A stretch of 22,614 nucleotides of DNA from a virus. Below the pieces are notes generated by a model. It worked only from the letters and a program-made list of their open reading frames with translations, did no database searches and was not told the DNA's origin. The stretch lies in the IMG/VR virus record IMGVR_UViG_3300024265_000214, positions 1 to 22,614 of that record. The stretch is one strand, 5' to 3'. The position numbers were made by a program, and so were the translations under genes. How positions within the stretch are numbered: position 1 is the first letter of the stretch; each line of letters starts with the position of its first letter. Below are positions 14,265 to 21,187 of this stretch, piece by piece.

Positions 14265-15428
14265 TTATTGATGATCGACACCGGTCACACGACCAGACTG
14301 ATCGATCTTCAAACGAAACTGCATCTTACCCTTCATCGTTTTAGACAAAGCGGTTGTAGATTGTTCAAGTCTTTGTATACGGATCAAAGCATCGCGATTT
14401 TTTGCTGTTACCGATCCTAAGTTCTTATTATGGGTAATCACCTCCCTTTGTATAGTTTCAACCGCTCCCATAACTTGCTGAAGCTTACTACGAGCTTCGC
14501 GTAAGTCCATTTCTAAGGACTCAATCTTTTTAGTGTGAATTGTAATGGCAGTTTTGTTATGACTGATACCATCACACTTCGGGAGTTCTCTCATACGCTG
14601 TTCAAGTGAAGATATACGGGCAAGAAGAGACGTATCAACTACCGCTTTGGGCATCTTCGGTGGGTCCACCGGAACTAGCGGTCTTTTTTCAACGGAAGAG
14701 GACCCAAGGAGGCTTTTAAGAAGTTCTGTGATAAGTGTGACATTCGGGCCGATCGTACACCCACCGAGATCAGTAGGCGAGTATTCGGCAACGATGCCCA
14801 CAATACCATTTGCAGAATAGATAGGGCCTCCGGAGTCCCCTTCCTGAGCAAAACACCTGACCTGGATATTACCACCCTCATAGCCAAGCACTGTACCGGC
14901 ACGCCCAGCCTGGGTTACTCGTGTTCCGGGTGCAGCAAATGTGGGTGCTAGAGTCAGAGGAATTGGGTGATTGGCGGGTGCCCGTAAGACCACGATGTCG
15001 GCAATTGCCGCACCTTTTAGAATTGTGGTCTTAACCCACTGGTTGTTAAGGTTAACCTCAGCCGTCCAGCCGGGTTCAAAGATATGGGCACACGTTACGA
15101 TATATTGCTTACCCTCAAAGAGTACAAAACAGCCAGTGCCGTACTGCATAGCACGCGGACAGACGGTTCGGATTTGTATCTCGGAAGGATGTCTTTTGCC
15201 CGCCGGCTGACGTGTCGGGGCCGTCGGCCGGGCGGGTTGAACCGGTCGCGGAGGACCGGGGTTATAACGAGGAGGTTGGCGTGGGGTACATCCTTGTGGA
15301 CCACATCGGTTACCAATCTTAATGCCGAAGCAACCAGCATTTTCATCGTAAGTGGTCTGGGACATACAAGTATGACCCCATAGGGCAAATGTTAAGGCTA
15401 ACAACACTTTGCACGATTTCTGTAACAT
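14265..15428 (-). CDS. Secreted trypsin-like serine protease with coiled-coil tail
   Basis: Protein of 387 residues from the ATG at 15428, with GAGG 5 bases upstream; a longer frame to 15500 covers the promoter and is rejected. Residues 1-24 are a signal peptide (charged start, KVLLALTFALWG core). Residues 28-90 are a Cys- and Pro-rich linker. The protease domain, about 90-240, shows His115 (TCAHIF), Asp144 (AIADIVVL) and Ser199 in EGDSGGP, the full catalytic triad of chymotrypsin-like (S1) enzymes. Residues 265-365 are a coiled coil. It cuts proteins outside the cytoplasm. It is the first gene of the late operon, behind a strong promoter. An extracellular protease in a virion operon is uncommon; it may act in lysis, host-surface breakdown or virion processing. 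Its substrate is unknown. Confidence 0.9.
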   Translation of the reverse strand: MLQKSCKVLLALTFALWGHTCMSQTTYDENAGCFGIKIGNRCGPQGCTPRQPPRYNPGPPRPVQPARPTAPTRQPAGKRHPSEIQIRTVCPRAMQYGTGCFVLFEGKQYIVTCAHIFEPGWTAEVNLNNQWVKTTILKGAAIADIVVLRAPANHPIPLTLAPTFAAPGTRVTQAGRAGTVLGYEGGNIQVRCFAQEGDSGGPIYSANGIVGIVAEYSPTDLGGCTIGPNVTLITELLKSLLGSSSVEKRPLVPVDPPKMPKAVVDTSLLARISSLEQRMRELPKCDGISHNKTAITIHTKKIESLEMDLREARSKLQQVMGAVETIQREVITHNKNLGSVTAKNRDALIRIQRLEQSTTALSKTMKGKMQFRLKIDQSGRVTGVDHQ

Positions 15429-15471
15429 CTTTGCCTCAGTCTTGGGTGTCAGAGGTTTCGTTCTACATCCT

Positions 15472-15500
15472 ATTATAGCACAAATTACGCTTAAAATCAA
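15472..15500 (-). promoter_or_regulatory. Promoter of the leftward late operon
   Basis: On the minus strand TTGATT (15500-15495) and a perfect TATAAT (15477-15472) are separated by exactly 17 bases. This is a near-consensus housekeeping sigma promoter. The expected start lies near 15465, giving a leader of about 37 bases to the protease ATG. It probably drives the genes leftward from the protease gene. Confidence 0.85.
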
Positions 15501-15568
15501 CTAAAAAATAATTGGAACTTTTTTCGTGCAAAATATAGCCCAGCGTACCGCGTTCTAGGACTGCTAGC

Positions 15569-16062
15569 GGGCCCAGGGTCCAGGGTCCATATATCAAGTG
15601 TCAGGTTTCTAATGCAAATTCAACTTTCGTACATGAGTCCCCGCAAATGGGCCCTGGGCCCTGGACTAAAAACCGCGAAAATAAGGTATTCAAAAAGTTA
15701 AAATATTCGCATAGTATAGGGGGTGGGGGGATATGTACCGGGGGTACCACCTGTGACGATTGATTTGACCCTCCCCCTTCCACTGATCGTAACGATTGTA
15801 CTGGATACAGGGCCCAGGGCCCAGTAACACCACTCACCGTTACAACCATCACTACCACTGCATTCAGTACTACCAGTAGTACTGGTACTACCATCCCATT
15901 AGATACAGTCAGGATAACTGGGCCCTGGGCCTACCGTTACAACCGTTACGATTAGTGTTAACACTACCATTAGATAGTAGTGATTGTGACAGTGATGAGG
16001 AATGTGTGTATAAGGGTGGTTGTATCAATAAAGAGGGAATGGCCTAAAATGGGCCCTGGGCC
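15569..16062. repeat. GGGCCC heptad clusters, five copies
   Basis: Clusters lie at 15569-15588, 15649-15665, 15810-15824, 15918-15932 and 16051-16062. Each is built on GGGCCC, mostly as two tandem units GGGCCCT or its complement GGGCCCA. Spacing between clusters is 80-160 bases. Two more clusters occur in the other non-coding stretch. The clusters are in an otherwise AT-balanced region and absent from genes. Confidence 0.9.
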
Positions 16063-16487
16063 AATGGTAACATCTGTATCATATAAACGCAGACTGCCTG
16101 TTAGCAGTTTTGTAATAGGGCTAACAATTCGAGAAATCGTACCAGATGTACCTATTGTACGAATAGGTGCCTATGGCCCTTTACGTCTGCCCACTTCCAT
16201 TGTGGAGAATGTGGGTCAACAGGGCAGAGGACTAGAGCACAATGGCCCCATCGGCATGCACAGAACGAGGTGGGCTACCCTCTGCCCTGCCTGCCCCTTC
16301 CCTGCCTGCCCTGCTACCATACACACCACCCCATGCCATAAGTGTATACAGGCTAACGACTTACGACATGTGCCCCATATATACAGTGGTACCCAAAATA
16401 AATCCTTGCCACCTAACCCCTTGCCCCGTAACGACTTAGGACGTGACTTGTTGCTTACCCCCCAGTGGACTACGTATAGTTAAGTGC

Positions 16488-16580
16488 AGGACGGAGAACG
16501 ACACACGGACGTGAGAACAGAGGACGGAGAACGACACACGGACGTGAGAACAGAGGACGGAGAACGACACACGGACGTGA
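16488..16580 (+). repeat. 33-bp tandem repeat, 2.8 copies
   Basis: Two perfect 33-base units (16488-16520 and 16521-16553) and a third of 27 bases (16554-16580), each starting AGGACGGAGAACGACACACG. A perfect 9-base tandem repeat, GATTGAGAC, follows at 16583-16600. Such iterated units are typical of replication or partition sites, and also of recently slipped DNA. Confidence 0.9.
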
Positions 16581-16879
16581 TTGATTGAGACGATTGAGAC
16601 ACTTGATTGACTGAGTCGGTATGGAACGATAGCACCTATTGTGCAGGTTATCCGAGGGAGTTGGGATGCGAGGGCGTGGTCGCCCCACCCAACAGGGCTA
16701 GTACGATGTGACTAGGTCGGATAATACAGAATATGACGGCGGACGGGGTTGTGGTCCCTGAATATATTACAGCCCCCTGCGGTTAACACCGGTCGATCAT
16801 GTTCTGTCTGTTACAACGATTACGCCCCCTACAGTGGGCAGTCAGTCGCCCCACCCCCTCAGAATAGGTAGGGTGGACT

Positions 16880-17254
16880 ATGACGACTAGACTAATTGAC
16901 GTGGATGCCGGGACTGCATGGACTGGATCAGTTGTGCGGGATGAACCGGTTATTCCAACTCTTGACGAACTGACGAAGAAACCACGTAAGACGAAGAAAC
17001 CGAATATCGGACGATTCCATGTATGGGATATGCCGGATATGGCGGGTACGCTACGCGGTTTTGAGCGGTTCGACAACGCATGGGAGCATTGCCAGACATT
17101 GGAATTCGGGTATATGCGAGACACCCAACGGGGTGGGTTTGGCCAAGTCTGGCCTACCCCCGGCGAGTGTGGCAAAGACGCCCATCGGACTACCACTCGA
17201 AAGAAAGTCGGTACGGAATTACACACGAAAATACAGCACGGTTTTAAGGGTTAA
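16880..17254 (+). CDS. Hypothetical protein, first gene of the rightward block
   Basis: Protein of 124 residues. The ATG at 16880 has GGTAGGGTGG starting 14 bases upstream. It has a Lys/Thr/Pro-rich segment (residues 29-42, DELTKKPRKTKKPN) followed by GRFHVWDMPDMAGTLRGFERFDNAWEHC, and a basic C-terminus with RTTTRKKVGTELHTKIQHG. It lacks a membrane segment and has no metal motif or fold I can name. The basic tail and Lys-rich linker could suit a nucleic-acid contact, but this is weak. It is the first plus-strand gene after the control region and lies about 90 bases before a possible microprotein. Confidence 0.65.
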   Translation: MTTRLIDVDAGTAWTGSVVRDEPVIPTLDELTKKPRKTKKPNIGRFHVWDMPDMAGTLRGFERFDNAWEHCQTLEFGYMRDTQRGGFGQVWPTPGECGKDAHRTTTRKKVGTELHTKIQHGFKG

Positions 17255-17343
17255 CACAACAGAGAGGATGGGGTTACTGACCCCCCACTGTAGGCATGTA
17301 CGGGATTGGCCTGGACACCTTACCTTTTACAGGGAGTTATGTC

Positions 17344-17433
17344 ATGGGTTATCACGAATGGGTTATCGCGGTTATGACGATTCCGGCCATCATTGGCATC
17401 TACAGTCTTTACCGCATCCCTAAGTTTCGGTAG
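17344..17433 (+). CDS. Candidate 29-residue membrane microprotein
   Basis: A short frame of 29 codons with ATG at 17344, preceded by AGGGAG with a 7-base gap, the best ribosome site of this stretch. The product begins MGYHEWVIAVMTIPAIIGIY and ends with SLYRIPKFR: a hydrophobic segment at residues 6-23 followed by a basic end, the usual shape of single-pass membrane microproteins. A competing frame at 17268-17423 lacks a spaced ribosome site and gives a His-rich peptide with unnatural look. It lies between a hypothetical gene and the palindromes before the ParB-like gene. Function unknown. Confidence 0.55.
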   Translation: MGYHEWVIAVMTIPAIIGIYSLYRIPKFR

Positions 17434-17458
17434 TCGCGGGGCCTACGGCTCGGCACAA

Positions 17459-17490
17459 CGGCCATGGCCGCCCTGGTATTCTTACCAGGG
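17459..17490. promoter_or_regulatory. Two abutting perfect palindromes upstream of the ParB-like gene
   Basis: A 12-base palindrome CGGCCATGGCCG (17459-17470) is followed without gap by an 8-base-pair inverted repeat CCCTGGTA-ttct-TACCAGGG (17471-17490). No T run follows, so it is not an intrinsic terminator. It is 81 bases before the ParB-like start, as expected for an autoregulatory operator or a partition site. This is inference. Confidence 0.55.
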
Positions 17491-17570
17491 TGTCCAGGCC
17501 AGTTTCGTACATGGTAGCGTAGGTTCTGTTGGTGGCCCGTTGGTGTTCTCCATCGAAAGTGAGCATTACA

Positions 17571-18944
17571 ATGGCTACTAACAAAGTGATTGACAAAGTT
17601 GTGGGTGTCCCGCTAGCCGAATTGGCCATGGGTTGGAGTTGGAATTACCGTTTCGACAACAATATGGACATTCCGGCAATGGTCGACGAGATTGCTCGTC
17701 ATGGTGGGATTCCTCACCCTTGTCTCGTTTTCATCCCAACCAAGTTTGATGCCGAAGGAAATTCCCTCGGTGTCGACGAGGCGTTCTACACGAAGAACGG
17801 TATCGACTTGGGATTGCTGATTCGGTGTCAAGGGCATCGAAGAACCGAGGCTGCGTTGTATATTATCAACCACCCCAGCGAGTTTTCGCACGAATTGGTG
17901 GAGGCATGCAAGATTATTCCTTGTTATGTCCGCCACATCGACGAAACCGAGGCCGAGGAGTTGGTGTTCGATCAAGGGGCAGCCATGTCGGTTAGTAAGG
18001 CGGAGGTGGTAAATGCCATCTATCGCCTGTACGATCGAGGCTACTCCGAGATCGAAATCACTGCCAAGTTGTACCAACAGCTAGGCACGATTCTTTACGA
18101 CGACGCGGACAAAGTTCGTGAGTATGCGTCCCTGCCTGTCGGGTCGGTTGCAAGGGCTGATTGCATTCGTGAGTGGTTACACACCAAGGTGGGTAGCTAC
18201 CACATCAAGGCGAAGAAGCTGGGGCCGTGGATTGCGGACCAAGTTCTTCTCTTGTTCAAGGAAGGCGACACGTTGCTTGACGAAGGCGAAGTGCTCGACG
18301 TCATGATTACGACTGGCCTGATGAACAAGTTGTCCAAGGCATGGCAGCGTGACCTGAAGACAATCGACCCGGAAACGAAAGAGCCGCGAGCCGTGACATG
18401 GAATGGCCCGGTTGCGGATGTCAAGATTACGACGAGCGAGGACGGGTCTGTCAAGGTTGACATCGAGGGTGGTGGGCAATACTTCAATGAAATATTGGAG
18501 CAATATATCATCGCCCACAAAGATCCGTCGGCGGCCAAGGAGGCAAAGGCCAGAGCATCGGAAGCCGAAGGGCCGAAGATGATGACGAAGAAAGCACTCG
18601 AAAGTCGGAAAGATTCCTACGTCTCGGACGCTGTCAAGTCTACCATCGCGGTGGTCTTGGGTGAGCGGGATGTTAACCTTAACGCCGTCGACTTGGAATC
18701 GTACCGAGTCGAGAAGGTGTTCGGGGCATTGGAAGCACTGGAATCGGCTGCCGATGACGTGTCGCTTGCTAAGTTCCTTCGGGCAATCCGATTGGGCAAG
18801 GCCAACGACGTGTTGGAAGCCGCCGCAACCATCGGCATCTATACGAAGCCTGACGGTCCGGCTGCGTCGGATCTATCGGGTGTTCAGTGTGCGGCCGAAG
18901 CGGCATGCGATGTCGTCATCGAGTCGGAAGGCGTCAAAGCGTAA
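17571..18944 (+). CDS. ParB-like protein without an adjacent ParA
   Basis: Protein of 457 residues; the ATG at 17571 with AAGTGAG upstream is chosen over a GTG at 17529, because AAGTGAG or AAGCGAG recurs before later genes of this block. Residues 25-125 look like the ParB N-terminal nucleotide-binding domain: PAMVDEIARHGGIPHPCLVFIP, then LLIRCQGHRRTEAAL with the GHRR stretch (88-91) that stands for the family's G[ED]RR box. A probable helix-turn-helix follows (VSKAEVVNAIYRLYDRGYSEIEITAKL, 141-167). The C-terminal 200 residues are helical and charged. ParB proteins load DNA at a centromere or regulate transcription. No ParA is visible in the window, so a phage regulator role is as likely as partition. 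Confidence 0.8.
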   Translation: MATNKVIDKVVGVPLAELAMGWSWNYRFDNNMDIPAMVDEIARHGGIPHPCLVFIPTKFDAEGNSLGVDEAFYTKNGIDLGLLIRCQGHRRTEAALYIINHPSEFSHELVEACKIIPCYVRHIDETEAEELVFDQGAAMSVSKAEVVNAIYRLYDRGYSEIEITAKLYQQLGTILYDDADKVREYASLPVGSVARADCIREWLHTKVGSYHIKAKKLGPWIADQVLLLFKEGDTLLDEGEVLDVMITTGLMNKLSKAWQRDLKTIDPETKEPRAVTWNGPVADVKITTSEDGSVKVDIEGGGQYFNEILEQYIIAHKDPSAAKEAKARASEAEGPKMMTKKALESRKDSYVSDAVKSTIAVVLGERDVNLNAVDLESYRVEKVFGALEALESAADDVSLAKFLRAIRLGKANDVLEAAATIGIYTKPDGPAASDLSGVQCAAEAACDVVIESEGVKA

Positions 18945-19027
18945 GTGTATCTGCGTGAGTGTCTACGTAAGTTTGTAGTTTCCCAATCTTCACCAAGCGG
19001 GTCACCTACAGAATCTACCCTACAGGC

Positions 19028-19099
19028 GTAAGGTTTCCGGTAGTACCAAGTAGCCCGATAATCCGTATGTGCGGATTGAAGACTACTTGATAACCTTAC
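19028..19099 (+). promoter_or_regulatory. Nested three-stem leader hairpin
   Basis: Three perfectly nested stems lie in the leader of the gene at 19115: GTAAGGT/ACCTTAC (19028-19034 with 19093-19099), AAGTAG/CTACTT (19048-19053 with 19083-19088) and AATCCG/CGGATT (19060-19065 with 19072-19077). In total 19 pairs without mismatch. The outer stem ends one base before the AAGTGAG ribosome site (19101-19107). It could control translation as a leader element. It matches no riboswitch class I know. Confidence 0.65.
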
Positions 19100-19114
19100 C
19101 AAGTGAGGGTTGCA

Positions 19115-19291
19115 ATGGGAATGAAGGAAACTGTCAAGGTTGACAAGCAATGTGCATATCACCATAAGTTGGACAACTCACGTTGTCAAGCTGACGGTGT
19201 GCATAAAATTGCACCGGGCAAGGGAGTGCATACCTTTTACTTTTGTGACGAACACTTCCCGACAGCAAGGGAAGCTGCAACGATGTCATAG
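19115..19291 (+). CDS. Small Cys/His zinc-binding-like protein
   Basis: Protein of 58 residues from ATG at 19115, with AAGTGAG 7 bases upstream; a GTG at 19103 is in frame but lies inside that ribosome site. The pattern QCAYHHKLDNSRCQ followed by FYFCDEHF gives candidate metal ligands Cys-x2-His, Cys, and Cys-x2-His. It resembles small zinc-binding proteins of phages that modulate host enzymes or nucleic-acid contacts, but I know no exact family. A strong intrinsic terminator follows 12 bases after the stop, so this gene is a short transcription unit or the end of the ParB-like transcript. Confidence 0.75.
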   Translation: MGMKETVKVDKQCAYHHKLDNSRCQADGVHKIAPGKGVHTFYFCDEHFPTAREAATMS

Positions 19292-19302
19292 TGGCATCAT
19301 GT

Positions 19303-19340
19303 ATCCCGGTCATCTCAATGTGAGATGGCTGGGATTTTTT
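19303..19340 (+). terminator. Intrinsic terminator, 15-pair stem
   Basis: A 15-base-pair stem (two G-U pairs, no mismatch) with a 3-base loop (19303-19317 with 19321-19335) is followed at once by TTTTTT. This is a complete intrinsic terminator after the gene at 19115. Confidence 0.9.
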
Positions 19341-19367
19341 GTTACCCTTAACAAGCGAGGTTAGCCA

Positions 19368-19577
19368 ATGCCAGAAGCTAAAACAAAAGTTGAATTCCAT
19401 ACCGATTTCGGGATCATCAAGCCGGATGAATACTACGGGACAACATACCCAATGCGGTGTCTATCCTGTCGTGTGAAGTTCGGACTACCACGGAATGGTT
19501 TGCAAACAAGGATCGTTTGTGGTTGTGGTCACAAACAGGATGTAAGGGCACCCCACCCATTTGCACCGCGTAGATGA
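19368..19577 (+). CDS. Small zinc-ribbon-like protein
   Basis: Protein of 69 residues, ATG at 19368 with AAGCGAGG seven bases upstream. Cys residues are placed as in a zinc ribbon: MRCLSCRVKFG (Cys-x2-Cys) and RIVCGCGHKQD (Cys-x-Cys with His). The N-terminal part is EFHTDFGIIKPDEYYGTTYP. Such small ribbons bind RNA, DNA or polymerase in phages, but the partner cannot be said. The stop overlaps the next start as ATGA, so the two are coupled. It lies just after the 19303 terminator, so a promoter must be nearby or readthrough occurs; none of good match was seen. Confidence 0.75.
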   Translation: MPEAKTKVEFHTDFGIIKPDEYYGTTYPMRCLSCRVKFGLPRNGLQTRIVCGCGHKQDVRAPHPFAPRR

Positions 19578-19870
19578 GGGGTCCACACGCTGAGGATTTC
19601 CAATGTCCTTTTTGTGGTGTTAGTATTAACAAGGCCACAACAGGACTGGTTGCCCTACACTTTTATAATGTGCATGGGATAATCACTAAGGATCGTGACG
19701 GCGTGCGAAGCCTGTTAATCAAGCTTCATGTGGTCGACATTCCAATTGGTAAGATTCTCGGGGAATGGACAATCGCTGCTTTCGTATTGGGAGTAGCGAG
19801 AGTTGTTAGAAGGTCTGACAAATTCATACTGTTTCAGCAAGGTAAGAAATGCAAGGTCAACGGAAGCTAA
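19574..19870 (+). CDS. Small zinc-finger-like protein
   Basis: Protein of 98 residues whose ATG overlaps the preceding stop as ATGA. Residues 11-30 form a C2H2-like finger: Cys-x2-Cys in CPFCGVS and His-x4-His in LHFYNVHG. The C-terminal part is hydrophobic then basic (DIPIGKILGEWTIAAFVLGVARVVRRSDKFILFQQGKKCK). A regulator binding nucleic acid is plausible, not shown. The last 22 bases overlap the next gene in another frame. Confidence 0.7.
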   Translation: MRGPHAEDFQCPFCGVSINKATTGLVALHFYNVHGIITKDRDGVRSLLIKLHVVDIPIGKILGEWTIAAFVLGVARVVRRSDKFILFQQGKKCKVNGS

Positions 19871-20082
19871 GCCCGACCGAACAAGACGAACTGGTCGAGA
19901 TGTACGAAGCCCTACTTCTCGATATAGATGGGATGACAAGGTGTGCTCTTGACTCAGTTCGGTATACCGTATTGGATATGCGGTATCACGCAAGGTCGCA
20001 TGAGATCGAGCACTATGTGCAAGGCAAGCAAGGCCCCGCCGCATGTAGGATTGCTCGACAAAGGATCGAAGACCGTCGTTAA
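19849..20082 (+). CDS. Small helical hypothetical protein
   Basis: Protein of 77 residues. ATG at 19849 with AAGG 5 bases before it. It is mostly helical and charged: KLSPTEQDELVEMYEALLLDIDGMTRCALDSVRY and a basic end RQRIEDRR. It has no Cys pairs and no membrane segment. It is the last gene of the rightward block, 3 bases before an intrinsic terminator. The function is not recognised. Confidence 0.75.
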   Translation: MQGQRKLSPTEQDELVEMYEALLLDIDGMTRCALDSVRYTVLDMRYHARSHEIEHYVQGKQGPAACRIARQRIEDRR

Positions 20083-20085
20083 CAC

Positions 20086-20130
20086 AAGCCCCTTGTGTCC
20101 ACTTTGGATGCAAGGGGCTTTTTTATTTTC
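20086..20130 (+). terminator. Intrinsic terminator closing the rightward block
   Basis: Stem AAGCCCCTTG/CAAGGGGCTT (20086-20095 with 20111-20120), ten perfect pairs, 15-base loop, then TTTTATTTTC. It lies right after the last rightward gene. Confidence 0.95.
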
Positions 20131-20251
20131 TAATTATAATTGGTAACTTTAACAACAGGACTGCCTGTCTTTAATACGTGTGTTTTTTGCACGATTTGTG
20201 TTACATAGATTTTCTATTTGAAATCAGGTTCGTTACAACTTCCGGTGTAAA

Positions 20252-20384
20252 GGGGTCACTACGGGCTTTCAACGTGAAGGTATGTGACGACAAGGGTGAC
20301 CCCCTCGAAACGCGAGAGACGCGAAGTCGGGCGATCTGACAGGGGTGTCCCGTCCTCGGCCACGCTCTCGCTGAACGGCCACCC
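20252..20384 (+). ncRNA. Candidate structured RNA, GC-rich island
   Basis: Complementary pairs: GGGGTCAC (20252-20259) with GTGACCCC (20296-20303), enclosing CTTTCA-acg-TGAAGG; then GCGAGAG (20312-20318) with CTCTCGC (20365-20371), enclosing GAC-a-GGG-gtgt-CCC-GTC. This makes two branched domains. The island is more GC-rich than its surroundings. No known RNA class is recognised and no promoter was found, so this is a hypothesis. Confidence 0.4.
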
Positions 20385-20410
20385 TCAAACACCACCCCAA
20401 TGGGGCGATT

Positions 20411-20515
20411 CTGACTGATTACTTCCCATTTCTTTTTCTCTATAACCCTCTCTCTTTTTTCCCTCTTTTTCTTTCCCTATAGAGGAAGTAGAGAAATATT
20501 GTTGTGGTCAGTCAG
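20411..20515. repeat. Imperfect large dyad with pyrimidine tract
   Basis: CTGACTGA (20411-20418) is complementary to TCAGTCAG (20508-20515), ACTTCC near 20421 to GGAAGT near 20484, and CTCTATA (20438-20444) to TATAGAG (20478-20484). The centre at 20445-20477 is pure pyrimidine save a few bases. Such a dyad resembles protein-binding sites of an origin or a recombination site. Function is unknown. Confidence 0.6.
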
Positions 20516-20811
20516 TCAATAAAGACAGGTAAAACGGCATAATTCTAACTCATTACGTAGTAAGGACTTACGTCGACGGTTACCCTCGTCTGAATTACTA
20601 CCAATGGGGGTTAGTCAGTACCAATGGTGTGTCCCCCATAGGTGTACCCTACCGGCTAACCCATACAATTAGCACCAACCACAACCCCCCCTGGCTGATT
20701 CTTACTACCGATGCAATCAGTACCCCACCAATGGTTTGTGTCACATATACCATGCAAAAAAGGTAACATTAACAAGGGAAACAAGGCAATACCCCTGTAA
20801 ATACTACAATT

Positions 20812-20909
20812 AGGCCCAGGGCCCAGCTTACGCTACCCATGAATCATCATCCATATACGTATCCACGCTGCATATTTATAAGCTGAAGCATTACAAATGG
20901 GCCCTGGAC
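20812..20909. repeat. GGGCCC clusters, two further copies
   Basis: AGGCCCAGGGCCCAG at 20812-20826 and GGGCCCTGGAC at 20899-20909. The second is preceded by CAAAT and followed by CTA, a context shared with the cluster at 15645-15668. They thus belong to the same repeat family as in the 15.5-16.1 kb region. Confidence 0.85.
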
Positions 20910-20941
20910 TAGTGTATTCACACCATAAGCACCTATAAAAC

Positions 20942-20978
20942 AAGCCTCGCTGGAACCACTGCGGTTCCGGCGAGGCTT
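20942..20978 (-). terminator. Bidirectional intrinsic terminator
   Basis: A 16-base-pair stem (one G-U pair) with a 5-base loop. On the minus strand TTGTTTTAT follows, closing the leftward operon 6 bases after its last stop codon. On the plus strand TATTTTTAAC follows, so rightward transcripts would also stop here. Confidence 0.92.
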
Positions 20979-20983
20979 TATTT

Positions 20984-21187
20984 TTAACTGTTAAGCTTAT
21001 TATCGATGAACTGTAATGCTTTCTCTTTGGCCATCCAAATGTCACCGCTTCCAGCACGATACCGATACCGAAGCCACCGACCACTACAGCACGGCGACGA
21101 GTACCAAATGCCCCACGCTGTGCGGGTATGTGGTATCGGCTTTGCTTCGAGTACGTGGCCGAGGCAGAGTTCTTCGTGTTCAATCAT
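20984..21187 (-). CDS. Small hypothetical protein, last gene of the dUTPase operon
   Basis: Protein of 67 residues. ATG at 21187 has GAAGG with a 6-base gap, and the gene overlaps the preceding stop by 8 bases, so coupling is expected. It starts MIEHEELCLGHVLEAKPIPH, is rich in Trp, Arg and Tyr in the middle (RTAWGIWYSSPCCSGRWLRYRYRAGSGDIW), and ends with a helical MAKEKALQFIDNKLNS. Two adjacent Cys at about residue 33. No family recognised. A longer frame in another phase at 20833-21183 runs through the terminator and is rejected. Confidence 0.7.
   Translation of the reverse strand: MIEHEELCLGHVLEAKPIPHTRTAWGIWYSSPCCSGRWLRYRYRAGSGDIWMAKEKALQFIDNKLNS

Follow-up and report, generated by a model that had tools for sequence, protein, structure and literature searches.

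A family of doubled GGGCCC heptads occurs in the IMG/VR virus record IMGVR_UViG_3300024265_000214, of which the stretch analysed here (positions 1 to 22,614; hereafter the window, 22,614 nt) is a phage fragment carrying terminase, portal, coat and scaffold genes. These doubled heptads form a private family of one uncultured phage genus; they are densest around the gene for a ParB-like protein (ParB-L) and probably serve as docking sites for a DNA-binding protein of the phage. The whole window is contained in G001, a near-identical contig of 41.6 kb (G001 coordinate minus 17940 gives the window coordinate), and the region is also present in G003, a near-identical contig of 24 kb, while a relative of 55 kb, G002, in which TerL is 79% and ParB-L about 61% identical, possesses the same GGGCCC family; all of these contigs are fragments.

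GGGCCC is found nine times in the window (15569, 15649, 15656, 15810, 15817, 15920, 16051, 20819 and 20899), forming seven clusters that all lie within 15501-16879 or 20127-20945, the two noncoding stretches which flank the rightward gene block, and it is absent from the genes of the window. The left stretch holds facing pair 1, composed of site A1 (15569..15589, minus strand; three heptads, GGGCCCAGGGTCCAGGGTCCA) as left member and site T1 (15648..15668, plus strand; TGGGCCCTGGGCCCTGGACTA) as right member, followed by facing pair 2, with A2 on the left (15810..15823, minus strand; GGGCCCAGGGCCCA) and T2 on the right (15919..15932, plus strand; TGGGCCCTGGGCCT), and by the unpaired site T3 (16050..16063, plus strand; TGGGCCCTGGGCCA), whose place and orientation are equal in G002. 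The right stretch holds facing pair 3, formed by A3 on the left (20812..20825, minus strand; AGGCCCAGGGCCCA) and T4 on the right (20898..20911, plus strand; TGGGCCCTGGACTA). A previous sequence-only reading had placed seven clusters in two gene-free stretches beside the rightward block and had noted a flank, CAAAT...CTGGACTA, common to two of them (15644-15668 and 20894-20911), both of which are borne out, as all nine GGGCCC of the window lie there; the proposed confinement to these two regions holds for the window but not for the phage as a whole, where other intergenic copies and a few within genes are present.

The sites consist of two, rarely three, contiguous 7-bp GGGCCCA repeats, mostly arranged in facing pairs, and when ten facing pairs are lined up the kept core is GGCCCA-G-GGCCCA, that is, a direct repeat of two tandem heptads. 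A longer odd palindrome, TGGGCCC-N-GGGCCCA, was considered as the unit and rejected, given that the inner A is kept in 10/10 A arms and the matching outer base is not; GGCCCAGGGCC is itself palindromic, yet the kept outer base follows the direct repeat. The heptad sequence GGCCCAGGGCCCA is a candidate target of ParB-L. When at most one mismatch was allowed, G001 had 8 places matching GGGCCCWGGGCCC and G002 had 16, and a reversed-pattern control matched nowhere in either. Orientation was counted over sites matching at least 11/14, which gave 11 pairs of neighbours at most 110 bp apart, including three that G001 and G002 have by common descent; ten of the 11 were facing (A then T), where a quarter would be expected by chance. 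The spacing within facing pairs ranges from about 21 to 110 bp, without helical phasing. The density that had been called improbable by chance is thus upheld by the doubled form, with its 8 and 16 places against none in the control, while the plain hexamer is only modestly high in the window (9 versus 4.1 +/- 1.8 expected, a number reached by 1 of 100 shuffles).

The arrangement of the sites is conserved between G001 and G002. In the divergent region both contigs show the order A T, a conserved box, and A T T, and in the convergent region both show A T, so that number, order and orientation of the seven sites are equal; the box, at 15693..15780 of the window between pairs 1 and 2 (AAAGTTAAAATATTC..GGGGGTGGGGGGATA ... 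GATTTGACCCTCCCCCTT), was recognized by alignment with G002 and served as the anchor for this comparison. The noncoding DNA around the sites is barely alignable between the two contigs except for short blocks, and the sites look selected because their arrangement has been kept in such surroundings. With gene calls from a simple codon-usage script, GGGCCC numbers 11 in 7.4 kb of noncoding DNA (2.6 expected) and 2 in 34.3 kb of coding DNA (5.1 expected) in G001, and 19 in 11.0 kb (4.3 expected) and 13 in 44.3 kb (9.9 expected), respectively, in G002. The genome-wide count against expectation thus reveals a noncoding excess in both contigs, and the motif is not equally frequent inside genes (11 noncoding versus 2 coding in G001), in agreement with the sequence-only reading, while a search of relatives recovered the family in G001, G003 and G002. 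Among 2.9 million IMG/VR contigs, only these three were found to contain facing pairs whose loops measure 45-105 bp. Exact 15-bp matches occurred in 16 IMG/VR contigs and were set aside, as those inspected, except G002, were coding or chance-like, the coding ones lying in an exonuclease gene of unrelated phages. Over G001 and G002 together GGGCCC is the top-enriched hexamer palindrome (45 versus 21.4 expected), and in most relatives examined it falls below expectation. As a separate observation, 13 six-bp palindromes are absent from G001 and G002, for example TTCGAA (40.6 expected), GGATCC (27.5) and CAGCTG (24.6), and such strong palindrome avoidance suggests heavy restriction pressure from the host. 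A distant relative, G005, carries a different heptad array, (GGGCCAA)n with about 19 units, at its contig end (L009 1-140).

The protein encoded between the clusters, ParB-L, comprises 471 aa (17571..18944, plus strand; the open reading frame is listed as 17529-18944, and the ATG at 17571 matches the homologs). Single-sequence Pfam and PDB searches with ParB-L returned no match. An iterated family search detected homologs in 16 phage contigs, this one included, and linked them to the HTH_ParB proteins of the clade; a 15-member alignment retains a QGHRR box, and its profile matches Spo0J (6e-8), Noc (5e-6) and, weakly, KorB (0.02). An AlphaFold model with a mean predicted local distance difference test score (pLDDT) of 83, which replaced a poor earlier model from two sequences (pLDDT 47), is closest in fold to PDB structures of ParB, KorB or Noc, which take the first nine places among its matches; the overall root-mean-square deviation is large, presumably because the domains are placed differently. 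By family profile and predicted fold, ParB-L is therefore a divergent ParB, providing the ParB-family protein expected of a ParABS system. The other components of such a system differ: ParA (PF13614 above cut-off) was found in 0 of 25 clade records, these records being fragments, and in place of a 16-bp palindromic parS near parB the GGGCCC sites are tandem heptads, the existing 16-bp palindrome being spread genome-wide. When the gene neighbourhoods within each genome are compared, the 3 kb around ParB-L rank first in noncoding content in 15 of 16 genomes and second in G001, and phage-private repeats are often present there, for example AAGCAACCATCC in G010, repeats of 50 bp in G018 and hairpin-forming ones in G027. 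GGGCCC is about twice as dense in the ParB-L flanks (14 in 8.1 kb) as in other noncoding DNA (8 in 10.3 kb). This placement of the locus is suggestive of a link between ParB-L and the sites.

From these observations it is tentatively proposed, at somewhat less than even confidence, that the heptads are recognized by a DNA-binding protein of the phage, most likely by ParB-L, acting in a ParA-less, KorB-like system; the KorB-like manner is put forward because ParA was not found. According to this proposal the GGGCCC family would represent recognition sites in double-stranded DNA, at which ParB-L would load and then spread or oligomerise, and by which it may silence or anchor the noncoding region of the window together with other operon boundaries; we infer every functional step here, from the binding of ParB-L to the heptads to its silencing or anchoring role, from sequence. 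Several points weigh against the proposal. Known ParB-family sites are mostly palindromes, facing pairs lack a constant helical spacing, and the ParB-L flanks contain only about half of the GGGCCC sites. Relative to noncoding length, repeats show just a modest enrichment near ParB-L (12 of 16 genomes, P=0.02), and the surplus of repeats next to the gene mostly reflects a surplus of noncoding DNA. Other ParB proteins and a further site family compete for the roles of binder and site, and the reader of the known heptad centromere is a ribbon-helix-helix protein and not one with the ParB-CTPase fold (PMC9499535). The earlier suggestion of a site array for the ParB-like protein is consequently sustained in part: family profile and predicted fold identify the protein as a ParB, and its homologs lie in long noncoding, usually repeat-bearing flanks, while half of the GGGCCC sites are elsewhere and the clade possesses additional ParB proteins and a larger second site family.

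This second family is a 16-bp palindrome, TTGTTAAGCTTAACAA, of which G001 has 44 copies and G002 has 65 when at most 4 mismatches are allowed (shuffles 2.0 and 1.4), about one per 0.9 kb, inside and between genes; in the window copies lie near 2177, 4121, 4843, 11116, 15043, 15389, 19087, 19339, 20140 and 21578. Relatives carry private versions of it, for example TGATTTANTAAATCA, present 60 times in G021, with up to 60 copies versus 0.02 expected. At least two HTH_ParB proteins, besides ParB-L, are encoded in 20 of 30 clade records, one of them at 988-1995 of G001 (L028). Noc sites are scattered round the chromosome (PMC8429893), and by analogy with these the palindrome array is the better candidate for the HTH_ParB proteins, a link weakened by some phages that have two HTH_ParB proteins and show no such array.

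Other explanations of the heptads have to be weighed against the proposed ParB-L sites. It could be argued that they are RNA or single-strand hairpins, whose 12-18 bp stems in transcripts would mark ends or processing, like REP/BIME or T7 RNase III sites, an account we consider unlikely. Most facing pairs can indeed form stems through pairing of their arms, on either strand (pair 1, A1/T1, forms an 18-bp stem when folded as plus-strand RNA), loop length varies freely, several sense-strand sites in G002 lie 1-48 bp past a stop codon, and one pair of that contig (28424/28527, reverse complement) shows a matched AAG/CTT change. However, any two sites can pair because GGGCCC is palindromic, and partner arms displayed no complementarity beyond that of shuffled partners (P=0.67; ten pairs, low power), so that a conserved hairpin is not supported, this absence of covariation being as expected of protein sites. 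Moreover, several sites are unpaired, pair 3 sits between converging terminators, and an Rfam scan of the window gave no match; a transfer RNA scan of the window likewise found none. The hairpin seeds suggested previously are weakly supported: facing pairs can fold, but their partner arms do not covary.

The heptads might alternatively be operators of another phage regulator, either an HTH_ParB protein or some other repressor, blocking transcription in the way of stoperators, which appears rather improbable. Stoperators are dispersed 13-bp sites with a phage-specific consensus (PMC6550527), and the heptads are similarly intergenic genome-wide, with TGGGCCCTGGGCC on the sense strand at 8 of 13 sites (antisense at 5) in co-directional parts of G002, but facing pairs, seen for 10 of 11 close neighbours, misfit the single orientation of stoperators, no repressor was identified, and for an HTH_ParB protein the palindrome array TTGTTAAGCTTAACAA is a better match. 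It is also conceivable, though quite doubtful, that the repeats are functionless intergenic heptamers, spread by slippage or copying and tolerated only between genes. A unit of 7 in two to three, mainly intergenic copies resembles bacterial heptamer repeats (PMC4679880, PMC4692102), other repeats abound in the clade's noncoding DNA, and the array at the contig end of G005 would also accord with such an origin; against this stand the equal number, order and orientation of the seven sites despite diverged noncoding DNA in G001 and G002, the facing rule (10/11), and the enrichment of a palindrome that is rare in most relatives. A mobile mini-element was rejected as well, since inspection by eye showed unrelated-looking interiors and no target duplication.

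None of the known systems compared is a full match. The OB operators of plasmid RK2 are 13-bp palindromes, whereas the phage sites are tandem heptads. The protein reading them, KorB, belongs to the ParB family and acts as a clamp capable of repression at a distance (PMC11790492). The two systems have in common a ParB-family protein and sites dispersed over the replicon, the heptads being likewise dispersed and mainly intergenic, and ParB-L would likewise repress from afar with no need of ParA. The centromere of pSM19035 (parS/Omega) offers a second likeness in its contiguous non-palindromic 7-bp repeats, of which two heptads form the minimal high-affinity site, as well as in its several clusters per replicon read by a partition-type protein (PMC9499535). 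There, however, WATCACW is present in 7-10 contiguous copies per cluster, full activity needs at least 4, and the reader is a ribbon-helix-helix protein acting with ParA, whereas the phage has 2-3 copies of GGGCCCA in facing pairs, a candidate reader with the ParB-CTPase fold and no ParA found; ParB-L is thus not a ribbon-helix-helix protein, and the search for one did not extend to other small genes. The stoperators of cluster A mycobacteriophages (PMC6550527) are also short, dispersed and phage-specific, with a consensus that differs between phages, but they mostly keep one orientation relative to transcription and their repressor is known, while the heptads face each other. TAACTGA and GGGNATC repeats (PMC4679880, PMC4692102) share the 7-nt unit, the at least two direct copies and the mainly intergenic position, but form direct arrays in bacterial chromosomes, in contrast to the phage heptads, which face each other in pairs around a ParB gene. 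Finally, orphan ParB-CTPase folds, whose genes lie apart from ParA in mobile DNA, are common in phages, and in the part of that work consulted a private repeat array beside the gene is not documented (PMC12704722).

Regarding the remaining features of the window, a small gene of 124 aa (16880..17254, plus strand), conserved in G002, lies ahead of ParB-L, and the noncoding stretch with sites A1-T3 also contains a 33-bp tandem repeat of about 2.8 copies (16488..16586, plus strand). The rightward block ends in a terminator-like hairpin seen directly in the sequence (20086..20126, plus strand; AAGCCCCTTG...CAAGGGGCTTTTTT), and another, an inverted repeat at 20934..20986, closes the leftward early genes. 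The convergent noncoding region between them (20127-20930, 0.8 kb) has short blocks in common with G002, namely TTTGCACG..TTGTTACA, CTGACTGA..TTTCTCTATA and TATGTAGTAAGGACTTACGACGAC, and possibly represents an origin or a structured RNA; a sequence of this region, TAGYAAGGACTTA, recurs as 8 copies in hairpins beside ParB-L of G027. Upstream of the genes for structural proteins, the first leftward gene (14265-15500) codes for a signal-like N terminus followed by a trypsin-like peptidase domain. A host search with the coat protein and terminase, covering 84,980 genomes of bacteria and archaea, yielded no relative.

ParA-less ParB-family proteins are common in mobile DNA, and their DNA sites are known for few of them (PMC12704722). 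A broader possibility, which we hold to be on the unlikely side, is that ParA-less ParB-L loci within long noncoding DNA exist clade-wide, with docking repeats replaced in each lineage, GGGCCC being the version of one genus, and that each phage would possess two ParB-type DNA-marking systems. If ParB-L reads the heptads, the clade would represent many pairs of protein and site that have evolved apart, and, if this is true, the rules by which ParB proteins choose their sites and the function of ParA-free phage ParB would become directly testable.

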